64,000 nucleotides of DNA from Chamaelirium japonicum. Taxonomy: Eukaryota; Streptophyta; Magnoliopsida; Liliales; Melanthiaceae. The notes below the pieces were generated by a model, which had not been told where the DNA came from, searched no databases, and saw only the letters and a list, made by a program, of their open reading frames with translations. Location: assembly GCA_947650365.1 (NCBI GenBank), contig OX393550.1:47281860-47345859 (forward strand), written 5' to 3'. The translations under genes and the position numbers were made by a program. Shown here piece after piece: positions 4,634 through 19,504 of this stretch (positions are counted from its first letter, which is position 1; each line of letters begins with the position of its first letter).

Positions 4634-4735
4634 TTATATATATATATATATATATATATATATATATATATATATATATATATATATATATATATATATA
4701 TATATATATATATATATATATATATATATATATAT
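4634..4735. repeat. (TA)n microsatellite, about 100 bp
   Basis: Nearly uninterrupted TA dinucleotides. It is the left flank of the foldback element at 4736-5133, which has another short (TA) tract at its right edge. Confidence 0.97.
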
Positions 4736-5133
4736 GGGTCAGGATCGGATGACCCAGCAAAATTTGACCCAGCAATAACCCAGCACCCTTTGAGGCACCT
4801 AGAGGTTATAGAATGAGCTGATTTTTTGTAGGGATGTTGTCTATGGTATGTTGATCATCCTCACAAAAAATCAGCCCATTCTAAAACCTCTAGGTGCATC
4901 AAATGCGCACTTCAAATCAAAACTTAAAATTGACAATAAAAAACCGTTGATTTGAAGAGCACCCTTTGATGCACCTAGAGGTTTTAGAATGGGCTGATTT
5001 TTTGTGAGGATGATCAACATATCATAGACAACATGTCTACAAAAAATCAGCCCATTCTATAACCTCTAGATGCCTTAAAGGGTGCTGGGTTATTGCTGGG
5101 TCAAAATTTTGCTGGGTCATCCGATCCCAACCC
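4736..5133. mobile_element. Foldback MITE in a (TA)n tract, family A copy 1
   Basis: The two halves are inverted copies of each other. The left end GGGTCAGGATCGGATGACCC pairs with GGGTCATCCGATCCCAACCC at the right end, and the pairing continues inward through CACCTAGAGGTT and GATTTTTTGTGAGGATGATC. Both sides are (TA)n, so no target duplication can be read. It has no coding capacity. A second copy lies at 9710-10106. Insertion in (TA)n is the hallmark of the rice Micron-type elements, but I cannot say the sequence is homologous to them. Confidence 0.85.
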
Positions 5134-5153
5134 TATATATATATACTAGTAAT

Positions 5154-5434
5154 GCCCGTGCCTGTCGGCACGCAAAAGATTTCGAGGGAGAGGACAATAT
5201 TTCGAGGCAGGTGAAATTATTTCGAGGGTGGCAAAAAAATATTTCGAGGGTGGCAAAAGATTTCGAGGGCGAGAACACTATTTCTTCCCCACATTTAAAC
5301 TCGATTCAATCTTAGTCGTTCACCTCTTTTCTAGATGAATCGCTCTCACCGTTATATTAGCTTATCTTGCCCCTTCATTCTAGCCCCCTCTCAAAAATAG
5401 ATCATGATCTTTCTTTGTACCCCCACAAAACTGT
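5154..5434 (-). mobile_element. Miniature Helitron-like element
   Basis: The plus strand begins A|CTAGTAATGCCCGTGCC-tgtc-GGCACG, the reverse complement of a Helitron 3' end (hairpin, short spacer, CTAG, host T). Rightward come TTCGAGG/ACAATATTTCGAGG tail repeats. Then 5283-5434 matches 9240-9394, the 5'-terminal segment of the longer neighbour, ending in the same ACCCCCACAAAACTGT. So within about 280 bp it has both ends of the family and almost no body. Confidence 0.5.
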
Positions 5435-5876
5435 TGGCACGCAAAAGATTTCGAGGCGAGGACAATATTTCGAGGAAGGTGACAATATTTTAGAGGTGGC
5501 AATATTTTTTTTCGAGGGCGGCGATAATATTTCGAGGGTGTTAACAATATTTCATGAGCGGTGATAATATTTCGATGAAGGTGACAATTTCGTGAGCAGT
5601 GATAATACTCTTGTCGGTCGGCACTCGGACGGGATGGCAAAATTGAAACATCTCTTTCAATTGAAAATAATTTGAGGGCGGAACAAAATATTTCGAGGGC
5701 AGTGAAAATATTTCGAAAAATGTAACAATATTTTGTGAGTGACTATAATATTTTGTGAGTGAAAGAACTATTTTGAGGGAGGCGATAATGTTTCGAGAGT
5801 GGGGAGAGATTGTGGTTCATCAGGGTGGAGGAGGAGGGCTAGCAAGTGATCTTCCTTTGATCCTCCTCTCTCCCTC

Positions 5877-5901
5877 GCCCCTCTCTCTCTCTCTCTCTCT
5901 C
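5877..5901. repeat. (CT)n microsatellite
   Basis: Short CT run at the border between the tail repeats and the body of the Helitron-like composite. Confidence 0.9.
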
Positions 5902-6191
5902 TTGCAATTTTTTTCTCCATCTCTCTCGAGCCACAACTTTCTCTCTCTCCCTGGGTTCAGGGATTTATGGGGGATCGCAACGGAATTACGGTATCCCCAA
6001 AATGTAGCTAATGTAATCAACATTGATCAAATTCAAATCCAAAAAAAATTTGATCCAGTTACTTCTCCAAAATCAGCTCAACACACACAACTTTGAAGTC
6101 GTATGTGGGGTGGGCCGACGACTTCACAACAGATAAGATAGTATGAAATGACACAAATACCCCTAAAATGGAGAGAGGGGAATACTCCAAC

Positions 6192-6390
6192 CTATTTAAA
6201 GAGGTTGGAACAAAATCGTTCTCGGATTAGCGATATGTTCTTCAGCCCGCAACCGACGCATTTGAGTATGACGGTGCTGGTCGTAGCATCAAACTTAACA
6301 CCAAGGAAGTCGCTAATGTTTCGAAGTGTTTGTACACCATACGACATGAGCTTCCCAACGCAAACCTTGGACACATCAGTGGAGCATAAG
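6192..6390 (-). pseudogene. Unidentified open reading fragment, possible captured exon
   Basis: The minus strand reads without a stop for more than 60 codons, including DVSKVCVGKLMSYGVQTLRN and TSTVILKCVGCGLKN. Codon use looks coding-like and it lies inside the minus-oriented Helitron-like composite. I do not recognise a family. It may be an exon of a captured host gene or a chance frame. The neighbouring DNA is AT-rich and non-coding. Confidence 0.3.
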
Positions 6391-16709: not shown

Positions 16710-17059
16710 GTAATGGTTTGTTGTGGGTGTGACCCTCCCCCCTTCTCTCTCTCTCTCTCTGAACATTGAAGGGACAGTTGTCCACATGTATGTTGCGTTG
16801 TATGCTAAAATAGCATTTTCCTTCTGCTGTAGTGTGAGAAACTTCTTTACAAAATCAAATGCTATTTGAAGTTTCTTCTTACTTGGCAAACTCTTGGGTC
16901 TCTTTACCGATATTGACTTGGATGGGGATATTAGTATCTAATTGTACCTAGATAGTAGACACTGTATTTTATGAGTATATATAATTATTAGATTGGCATG
17001 AAGACTTGATATAATACTGTATGTGTGGGAATATTTGCCTTAATGAGATGATTACGTTC

Positions 17060-17433
17060 CTGCTCTTGAATGAAACAAACGTGTGCCAAGGCCTGCTCTT
17101 GAATGAAACGCTCAGAATCTGTAAAATAACAAATTTCAGTAATGTCTATTTAATATCTGGAAGATCGTCGTGAAGCAGGGCCTACAAAGTTTCAAGAATC
17201 ATATGTTATCAGGCAAGCCAGTGTAGATACTGTTAGCTCCAGATGCATTCTTTACCTACTCTGTCTGCAAGGAAGGTCAGGTTCGCCAAAGCCCATACAG
17301 TCTTTAAACTTAGTGTTGCGTTCATTGACTTAGATAGCTGAACAAGTAGTTTGACAACTTCACATTGGATAAAGATCGACTTTCGAGTTGTAAAGTCAAC
17401 AACCACTTTGCAAATAGCATCGAGTGCAACAAC
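17060..17433 (-). pseudogene. ARMC8-like armadillo-repeat gene fragment
   Basis: On the minus strand an acceptor (CTACAG) at 17,434 opens an exon reading VVALDAICKVVVDFTTRKSI, then FIQCEVVKLLVQLSKSMNAT, then LSLKTVWALANLTFLADRV. After a one-base frame change it continues as KECI and ELTVSTLACLI, and further left as DSERFIQEQALAHV. The series resembles plant armadillo-repeat protein 8 (ARMC8, a subunit of the CTLH/GID ubiquitin-ligase complex) as I remember that family. There is a frameshift, an internal non-coding insertion, and a duplicated CCTGCTCTTGAATGAAAC at its 3' side. It is antisense to the surrounding composite and has no start or end, so it is non-functional. Confidence 0.6.
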
Positions 17434-18109
17434 CTGTAGTAAATCGATTACTCATGCATTTCAGATAGATATGCCAATTATCAAATGCTATATATATCAG
17501 TACTGGAAACTTGAAGGTATTCCACCTACAACAATGCACTATAAAATCTATTAATTATAAAATCCTTTAAAGTTTTCAAAGGATTTTGTTGTAATTTGCC
17601 TTCAATTTTTGCTTACATCCCAATTGGATTTGGTTACATCATAATTTTTGTGGTAAGAATCATCTGGGGAACTAGGTTATTGGTAGGATGTGAGATTTTT
17701 GCGGCATATTTTAGGAGCATTTTTTTTTCCTTCCATATATGGTTGATTCGTAGGAATGTGGAATTATGATATTAATGTGCATAGGTTTTTAATACAAAAT
17801 TATTAACTGAGCATATGCATGGTGACTGAATGTGCCAATGAGTTCGTTTCGCATCCAAAAATTATGATTTTTTTTTCTAAATTTTGGAAAAATGAAACGG
17901 TTGTTACGAGTCGCACTCGGGTGTCTAGCATGAAGGTTCATATTATGGAATCATGCCCGATTCAAATTAGGAGAAATTCAAGTACTGCAATTGGGGCCGG
18001 ATTCATAGACCGTGACAAGGTGACGTGGGGGTCTGAGAGGAGGGGGCTTAGCCCTTGCGTCCTACTGGGGTCCGAGGCCCGGGTGGCTTGATGGGGTGGC
18101 GGCCAACAG
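17434..18109. other. Unassigned DNA inside the composite
   Basis: It is AT-rich to about 17,870 and more GC-rich from 17,990. A 90-codon frame at 17,819-18,091 has no recognisable domain. The stretch may be intron and exon residue of captured genes. Confidence 0.4.
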
Positions 18110-18477
18110 GCATGAGCATTATTGTCACCTCAAAATATTGTTTTCTTCCTCGAAATAATTTTTTTGCCTGCCTAAAAATATTGTCACCTACCTCAAAATA
18201 TTGACCTCGCCCTCGAAATCTTTTGCGTGCCGACATAAGCATTATCACCGCTCACAAATATTATTATCTCTTTCGAAATATTGTTGCAACTTTTGAAATG
18301 TATGTTTTATTGTCACCTTTGAAATAAGTCACCTTTTTTGTAATAATTTTCGCCCTTGAAATAATTATTCCCGTCCTCAAAATATTGCTGCCACCATCTA
18401 AAAATTATCACCGCCCTTGAAATATTTTCGTCGTCCTTGAAATCTTTTTCGTGACCTTGGGCACGGGGTTTTTACTA
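18110..18477 (+). repeat. Helitron-type tail: CGAAATATT repeats, hairpin and CTAG end
   Basis: About fifteen variants of CCTCGAAATATTGTCACC, one AAATCTTTTGCGTGCCGACA block identical in reverse to the start of the miniature element at 5154, and then the terminal hairpin CGTG...GCACG. Eight to ten bases later comes CTAG followed by T and a (TA) tract. Confidence 0.65.
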
Positions 18478-18491
18478 GTATATATATATAT

Positions 18492-19383
18492 GGGGACGGG
18501 GAGCCTGGACCTCAGGTGCAGCATGAATGCTGCACCCGTGCCTGCATGGATGCCAAGTGTCATGCCAACTGTTTCCCCGAATTAATTCCCTACCGAACAG
18601 CCCATCGATTTTTGTGGGATTATTCTAAGTCGTCTGATCGCCAGGATCCAACGTAAGGGATTCATCCCGACCGGATTCTCACTGTTACTGTGGCGGGCAC
18701 AGTAACAACGAGATTTTTGTCCGGATGAATCCCATCCGTTGGATCCTGCGATCGGGCGGCTCAAACAAATATCGGCTGGCTGTTTTGTTGTGTGGGTGAA
18801 TCTCATCCATCTGATCGATCGAATCGAACGGGCCAAAATAATTTCGCGGTTACTGTAGCCGCTACAATAACCGCAAAATTATTATGAGCCATTCAATTCG
18901 ATGAATCCAATTGATTGGATTCACCCGGACGGCCAATTGAATTCCAAATGAATCCCATCCGTTGGATTCATCCGATCGGACGACTCAAAACAATTTCGAT
19001 GTTACTGTAGCGGCTACAGTAATCGCGAAATTATTTCGGCCCGTTCGATTCGATCGATCAGACGGATGAGATTCACCCACACAATAAAACAGCCCGCCGG
19101 TATTTGTTTGAGTCGCCCGATCGCAAGATCCAACGGATGGGATTCATTCAGACCAAAATCTCGCTGTTACTGTGCCCGCCATAGTAACATTGAGAATCCG
19201 GTCGGCAGGATGAATCACTTACGTTGGATCCTGGTGATCGGACGGCTCAGAATAATCCCACAAAAACCAGCGGGCTGTTCGGTAAGGAATTAATTCGGGG
19301 AAACAGTTGGCAGGACACTTGGCATCCATGCAGGTACGGGTGCAGCATTCATGCTGCACCTGCGGTTCAGGCTCCCCGTCCCC
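18492..19383. mobile_element. 892-bp near-perfect inverted-repeat element, family E
   Basis: Two arms of about 440 bp are inverse copies, from GGGGACGGGGAGCCTGGACC at the left to GGTTCAGGCTCCCCGTCCCC at the right, with a centre near 18,937. It contains shorter palindromes such as GTTACTGT-ggcgggc-ACAGTAAC and GTTACTGTAGCGGCTACAGT. A (TA) tract flanks each side. There is no coding capacity. A transcript through it would fold into a very long hairpin and could feed small RNA production. Confidence 0.88.
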
Positions 19384-19504
19384 TATATATATATATATAT
19401 ATATATATATATATATATATATATATATATATATATATATATATATATATATATATATATATATATATATATATATATATATATATATATATATATATAT
19501 ATAT
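19384..19504. repeat. (TA)n microsatellite, about 120 bp
   Basis: Right flank of foldback family E and the last tract of the (TA)-linked chain. Confidence 0.97.

Follow-up and report, generated by a model that had tools for sequence, protein, structure and literature searches.

How does a chain of different foldback transposons, joined by (TA)n tracts, come to stand at a single genomic site? The question is raised by positions 4635–19505 of a 64,000-nucleotide stretch of Chamaelirium japonicum DNA (C2:47281860–47345859 of the 1.52-Gb assembly; hereafter the window), where foldbacks A and B (each present twice), a single C, the tip of a second C fused to a foldback D, one E and two Helitron-like composites form one array. 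The array is very probably modular, its foldbacks being non-autonomous Mutator-type elements of the SaTar/MuTAnT kind, and it very probably grew at this one site as elements inserted one after another into a TA run that was already there, with slippage in between.

The array-free form of the site can be read in the same assembly. The left flank (4235–4634, plus strand) ends, over approximately its last 80 bp, in a dispersed host repeat that continues in the right flank (19506–19569, plus strand). When the two outer flanks were joined and used as a query, 19 of the 40 matches listed were junction-spanning, array-free places, with net differences of −4 to +10 bases and 71–87% identity over 78–137 query bases. 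In the six junctions that were read, ACTTAT or a close form is followed by a TA-rich stretch and then by GACTTGG or a close form, and the longest uninterrupted TA runs are 12, 12, 10, 9, 6 and 5 bp. Thus, the 14.9-kb array occupies the place of a TA-rich stretch of about 12 bp.

A second site of this type is occupied by a single A copy (locus L014), which also lies in a dispersed repeat and is flanked by 85 and 54 bp of TA; the two tracts less a 9-bp duplication sum to 130 bp (85+54−9), an even number, as a host tract requires. Its joined flanks span the junction at 20 places among the 51 matches listed (net −15 to +30 bases), and other copies of the host repeat gave two-piece matches 60 to approximately 446 bases apart or matched on the left side only. 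Seven element-free junctions were read (five of the 20 spanning places and two two-piece copies with gaps of 60 and 68), with TA runs of 6, 7, 12, 16, 40, 60 and 68 bp. The run is therefore native to the host repeat, and long tracts occur without an element. Gaps of ∼285–446 bases at the same site were seen in further copies of this repeat on C1, C2, C9 and C11, and are perhaps other elements in the same TA run.

The association with TA extends across the genome. Among the 30 best A loci, TA adjoins both ends, with at least 10 bp on both sides in 29 and 8 bp on the left in one; among the 30 best C loci, at least 10 bp of TA is found near the left end in all 30 and near the right end in 27, in some cases behind a short CT run. 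These are best matches, and loci chosen in that way favour young elements. In a stricter count, which covered all 82 fetched loci plus the window, a copy had to have tips of no more than one mismatch, and overlapping loci were merged beforehand by identical element and tract lengths. Of the resulting 90 distinct copies, from six families, 78 carry a perfect TA 9-mer on both sides; the remaining 12 were set aside. Because calling is tip-based, sizes vary within a family (e.g. E 706–892 bp, D 256–947 bp). A further sample was not chosen by overall similarity: a pattern consisting of the 16-bp A tip, any 18 outer bases and then a non-G was found at 3,075 places genome-wide, while the reversed control gave none. 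Of the first 100 places listed, which all lie on contig C1, 93 have a flank that matches TA at 17 or more of its 19 bases, although the demand for non-G at the 19th outer base slightly favours TA, and 87 begin with a perfect TA 9-mer. The seven non-TA flanks comprise one by a CT run, two by GT runs and four others. In the samples seen, most copies therefore do not lie outside (TA)n, and the original prediction that several families share this target was borne out. Seen from the tracts, GGG stands next at 38,622 (23.9%) of the 161,582 ends of TA tracts of at least 20 bp, and CCC at 780; the total is the pattern count plus its mirrored control, the latter covering the other phase, and GGG serves as a proxy for foldback tips, the families at those ends not having been read.

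How the TA came to be on both sides was addressed by its phase. On the opposite strand TA reads as TA again, so that its direction is invisible but its phase is not. A 9-bp duplication within TA predicts the same base on both sides of an element, TA carried by the element as inverted termini predicts opposite bases, and random filler predicts half of each. Identical flanking 9-mers were found in 75 of the 78 copies (A 28/31, C 22/22, D 8/8, E 12/12, F 4/4, H 1/1), an excess with P 5e-19 provided that all copies are independent. A few copies may be segmental duplicates (L072, L074), and the value therefore somewhat overstates the strength of the result. Two C copies, L039 and L041, have near-identical flanks (98.5% left, ∼91% right) and are likely a segmental duplication. 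Paired ends among the first 100 listed A tips gave a similar picture, with 18 of 19 in the same phase. The original prediction had left two possibilities, that each new element brings or expands its own (TA)n or that an open tract serves as a landing strip that regenerates at every insertion. The shared phase tells against TA brought in as an inverted terminal tract, and array-free and element-free relatives already carry TA; the second possibility is supported, with the tract left on both sides of an insertion.

Since the phase is the same, the duplication must be odd in length; the value of 9 comes from one C copy outside TA (L043:2952–3516, 565 bp), which has a perfect non-TA duplication, CTACAAGAT, directly on both sides. 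Mutator duplications range from 8 to 11 bp and are typically 9 bp; a 9-bp duplication is direct in this one C copy, and in the other families it is indicated by phase only. It agrees with the 9-bp duplications reported for MuTAnT (PMC4486113).

The tracts appear to have lengthened after insertion. In the 78 copies, the length of the left tract is not correlated with that of the right (rho 0.07; medians 77.5 and 73 bp), and the shorter flanking tract is at most 20 bp in 12 of them. A uniform split of one long tract was rejected for these flank lengths (Kolmogorov-Smirnov P 4e-6). Uncorrelated, non-split lengths fit independent lengthening of each flank. Other dinucleotide runs beside the tracts are strongly oriented: directly after a TA tract we counted GA 40, AG 1, CA 2, GT 1 and no CT/TC, and directly before it TC 66, AC 6, TG 1 and no GA/AG (these counts exclude nine overlapping loci). 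In pineapple, too, GA and TC runs have been reported at these edges, and slippage was suggested (PMC8449440). Three C copies (L048, L052 and L053) share the same right sequence, which has no TA tract of at least 10 bp, and have left TA tracts of 251, 153 and 61 bp; they are perhaps one duplicated segment with drifted tract length.

Taken together, these observations suggest the following course. The start would have been a short (TA)n run that is native to a dispersed host repeat and measures at most 12 bp in the six array-free relatives that were read. Each foldback would enter the run by cut-and-paste with a 9-bp target duplication (TATATATAT or ATATATATA), and because that duplication lies inside the run, TA of one phase would remain on either side of the element. 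The two flanks would then lengthen independently by 2-bp slippage, and the lengthened flanks would offer two reopened landing strips to the same or other families, and to Helitron-like elements as well. We infer that the transposase is of the Mutator class and that growth was caused by slippage, and the order of insertions is likewise inferred.

Several points weigh against this account. Three of the 78 copies, all of family A, have the opposite phase, and only one non-TA duplication was seen. Tract length showed no correlation with the divergence of the copy (27 copies of A and 22 of C), and growth over time is therefore not directly demonstrated. The array-free and element-free comparisons use paralogous repeat copies rather than alleles. 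Recombination that carried an element's old TA flanks along would also keep the phase. Finally, no Mutator transposase gene was linked to foldback tips. A PF10551 search gave at least 150 matches, many in frames of 700–835 amino acids (aa); no transposase was recognised by eye in the first 60 residues of the 60 longest of 281 stop-free frames of at least 110 aa in the fetched DNA, on which no profile search was run.

Among the alternatives, insertion into a very short TA/AT site, with all long tracts made afterwards by gap repair, follows a model for maize TAFT elements (cited in PMC5907723) and differs from stepwise insertion and slippage in degree. The six array-free relatives with only 5–12 bp of uninterrupted TA speak for it, as do the uncorrelated lengths of the flanks, of which both are long. 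Nevertheless, TA runs of 40–68 bp occur in three copies of the L014 host repeat that lack an element, so that growth needs no insertion there unless an element was lost, and we consider it unlikely that gap repair made all of the long tracts.

For SaTars, a route has been proposed in which circular intermediates recombine homologously and microsatellite sequence fills the space between element ends, and guayule flanks inconsistent with target duplication have been reported (PMC5907723). Filler derived from an element's own previous flank would keep the phase. Random-length filler would, however, leave half of the copies in the same phase, far from what was observed, and family C has a non-TA 9-bp duplication. 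We regard this route as improbable for the present array. That the (TA)n at either end is part of an element's own inverted termini is very hard to sustain: the oriented GA/TC runs beside the tracts are consistent with growth from element tips, but the phase is the reverse of what inverted termini predict and sites free of the array or of an element already carry TA. Equally, we give almost no credence to the (TA)n junctions being assembly artefacts, for although long TA tracts are hard to assemble and one locus (L010) has N beside its tract, mis-joins would not be expected to yield the phase lock, the 50-fold GGG/CCC asymmetry at tract ends or colinear array-free sites.

Within the window, the array begins with a (TA)n tract of 101 bp (4635–4735), followed by A1, the first foldback A (4736–5133, 398 bp; all elements are on the plus strand unless stated). 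A1 is a near-palindrome with phase T/A1/T; it was included among 40 genome places that were scored, and stands outside the strict count with two tip mismatches. A 12-bp tract (5134–5145) separates it from Helitron-like composite 1 (5146–9396, minus strand), beyond which lie 16 + 36 bp of TA with one interruption (9397–9448), the first foldback B (B1, 9449–9607) and a tract of 102 bp (9608–9709). The second foldback A (A2, 9710–10106, 397 bp; phase A/A2/A) and foldback C (10248–10822, 575 bp; phase A/C/A), both near-palindromes, are joined by a tract of 141 bp (10107–10247), and C is followed by a tract of 32 bp (10823–10854). Next comes the 32-bp tip of a second C (10855–10886), which adjoins, without intervening TA, a near-palindromic foldback D that lacks its left tip (10887–11152); intact D copies elsewhere have TA and then start GGGGAGGGATACTC, and the fusion probably arose by deletion. 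A tract of 141 bp (11153–11293) leads to Helitron-like composite 2 (11294–18478), within which lie the second foldback B (B2, 16241–16380, without TA at its left) and a tract of 51 bp (16381–16431). The array closes with a tract of 13 bp (18479–18491), the near-palindromic foldback E (18492–19383, 892 bp; phase T/E/T) and a tract of 122 bp (19384–19505) at its right edge.

The foldbacks carry terminal inverted repeats, as microsatellite-targeting Mutator-like miniature inverted-repeat transposable elements (MITEs) and SaTars do. The palindrome arms are 278 nt at 91% in C, 262 and 176 nt at 88–92% in E, 167 nt at 89% in A2, 145 nt at 95% in A1 and 124 nt at 91% in D. Eighteen TA tracts of at least 10 bp are present in the window, 11 of them (767 bp) inside the array and 7 (233 bp) outside. 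Eighteen element edges were assigned by hand in the array, and 17 of them are no more than 3 bp from the point where a TA tract ends; positions placed at random in the region gave a mean of 0.16. Three of the edges (the right edge of B1 and the 5′ end of each composite) had no independent end, were placed at the tract and count weakly; of the edges with tract-independent ends, 14 of 15 meet TA. B1 reaches TA on its right through a (CT)n run, and the sole edge without TA is the left edge of B2 (∼16240). The original prediction that nearly every edge meets (TA)n is thus upheld. Its pure tracts of 14 to 141 bp are correct at the upper bound; the shortest is 12 bp and that at 9397–9448 is interrupted once. 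The fragment it listed with C is the 32-bp C tip fused to D. A head-to-tail arrangement has no meaning here because foldbacks are near-palindromes. Two further tracts in the window, at 41243–41292 (50 bp) and 56164–56293 (130 bp), have no foldback seen alongside (neighbouring segments checked for inverted repeats in the latter, reading by eye in the former), and open TA tracts thus seem to exist elsewhere in the same window.

The families had been taken to be unrelated, which is partly so. A core is common to A and C (272 bp at 70% identity, E 6e-40), and F, G, J and K, four further families in the fetched loci, have this core of about 270 bp as well. Otherwise, family I is a relative of B and family H of E, and D has its tips in common with M (E 1e-5); the last relation is weaker than the others because a shuffled control (20 rounds, all pairs) gave 6 hits at E≤1e-3. 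No match among the A/C, B, D and E groups was listed in the family comparison, and the window therefore holds at least four sequence groups.

TA-linked chains are common elsewhere. If any TA-linked inverted repeat of at least 60 nt within 1.5 kb on either side is counted, a foldback neighbour is present for 41 of the 52 copies of A and C tested (A 18/26, C 23/26), and a TA tract of at least 20 bp inside an element was found in 0 of the 90 copies. The arrays are thus of mixed families and non-nested, though B2 lies inside composite 2. At L016:1501–3160, three A copies are TA-linked, two adjacent and the third past a 260-bp segment. Helitrons end in CTRR after a hairpin and insert before T. Both composites end in CTAG/T with a preceding hairpin, at 5146 in composite 1 and 18478 in composite 2, and so have this 3′ end; a 5′ TC end was recognised in neither. 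As ACTAG stands directly before a TA tract at 1,158 genome places, compared with 98 in the mirrored control, Helitron-like elements use TA tracts as well.

Directly to the right of the array (19569–20493) is an inverted repeat with 170-nt arms, 81% complementary, that starts near TAGGGGTGTGCAAG and that we take to be apparently another, hAT-like MITE. Judging from motifs, the open frame at 60929–61552 presumably resembles part of a NAC transcription factor and that at 521–1099 part of a Copia polyprotein.

Arrays of this kind are already known, and the broader pattern that had been proposed is not new: non-nested mixed arrays were described as SaTar arrays in guayule, rice, sorghum and citrus (PMC5907723). 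Based on that account, these are the same thing in all main respects, i.e. short elements with terminal inverted repeats, mostly flanked by microsatellites, often (TA)n, which form microsatellite-linked arrays of mixed families, never nested, with some deletion fusions and some target duplications. The duplications are 10 bp in guayule and 9 or 10 bp in citrus, whereas here the length is 9 bp in one copy and odd by phase; furthermore, the authors suggest a separate recombination, while the phase here fits ordinary cut-and-paste. MuTAnT of Medicago truncatula is likewise described as a foldback Mutator-like family with GGGG/CCCC tips, (TA)n targets and 9-bp duplications outside TA, whose empty sites average nine TA repeats and whose occupied sites have longer tracts (PMC4486113). 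An autonomous element with a mudrA-like open reading frame was found there, while none is linked here. The pineapple Ac-mMITEs cluster by adjacent insertion, have (TA)n flanks and 9/10-bp duplications outside TA, and carry 5′ (GA)n and 3′ (TC)n runs ascribed to post-insertion slippage; no autonomous partner was reported for them, and two families with related tips are described (PMC8449440), compared with the four or more sequence groups of this window. According to the papers that cite them, Micron (rice) and TAFT (maize) also insert into (TA)n. In carrot, 15 families that together number over 2,000 such elements were reported; their mobilisation was left open there, and how they propagate and are directed to TA was called unclear (PMC8227079). 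Micron-like elements were reported in a survey of 207 plant genomes (PMC12550479).

What this locus adds is unusually clean mechanistic evidence, as array-free sites and the traces of insertion can be read directly. A phase test, or an empty site in which a single seed stands for a whole array, was not found in the open-access literature searched, which is no proof of its absence in print. The phase of TA across an element is a simple genome-wide test, which random-length filler and element-borne inverted TA both fail here, and paralogous host repeats allow sites with and without an array to be compared inside one assembly. A warning also follows: in genomes of this type, a TA microsatellite marker can be the edge of a transposon. 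More broadly, we see even chances that short TA runs in dispersed repeats act as self-renewing nuclei, through slippage, in-phase splitting and regrowth, that are shared by several lineages of Mutator-type foldbacks and by Helitron-like elements, in which case ordinary cut-and-paste would account for SaTar arrays with no need of a separate recombination route, and much of the long TA in this genome would be transposon territory.

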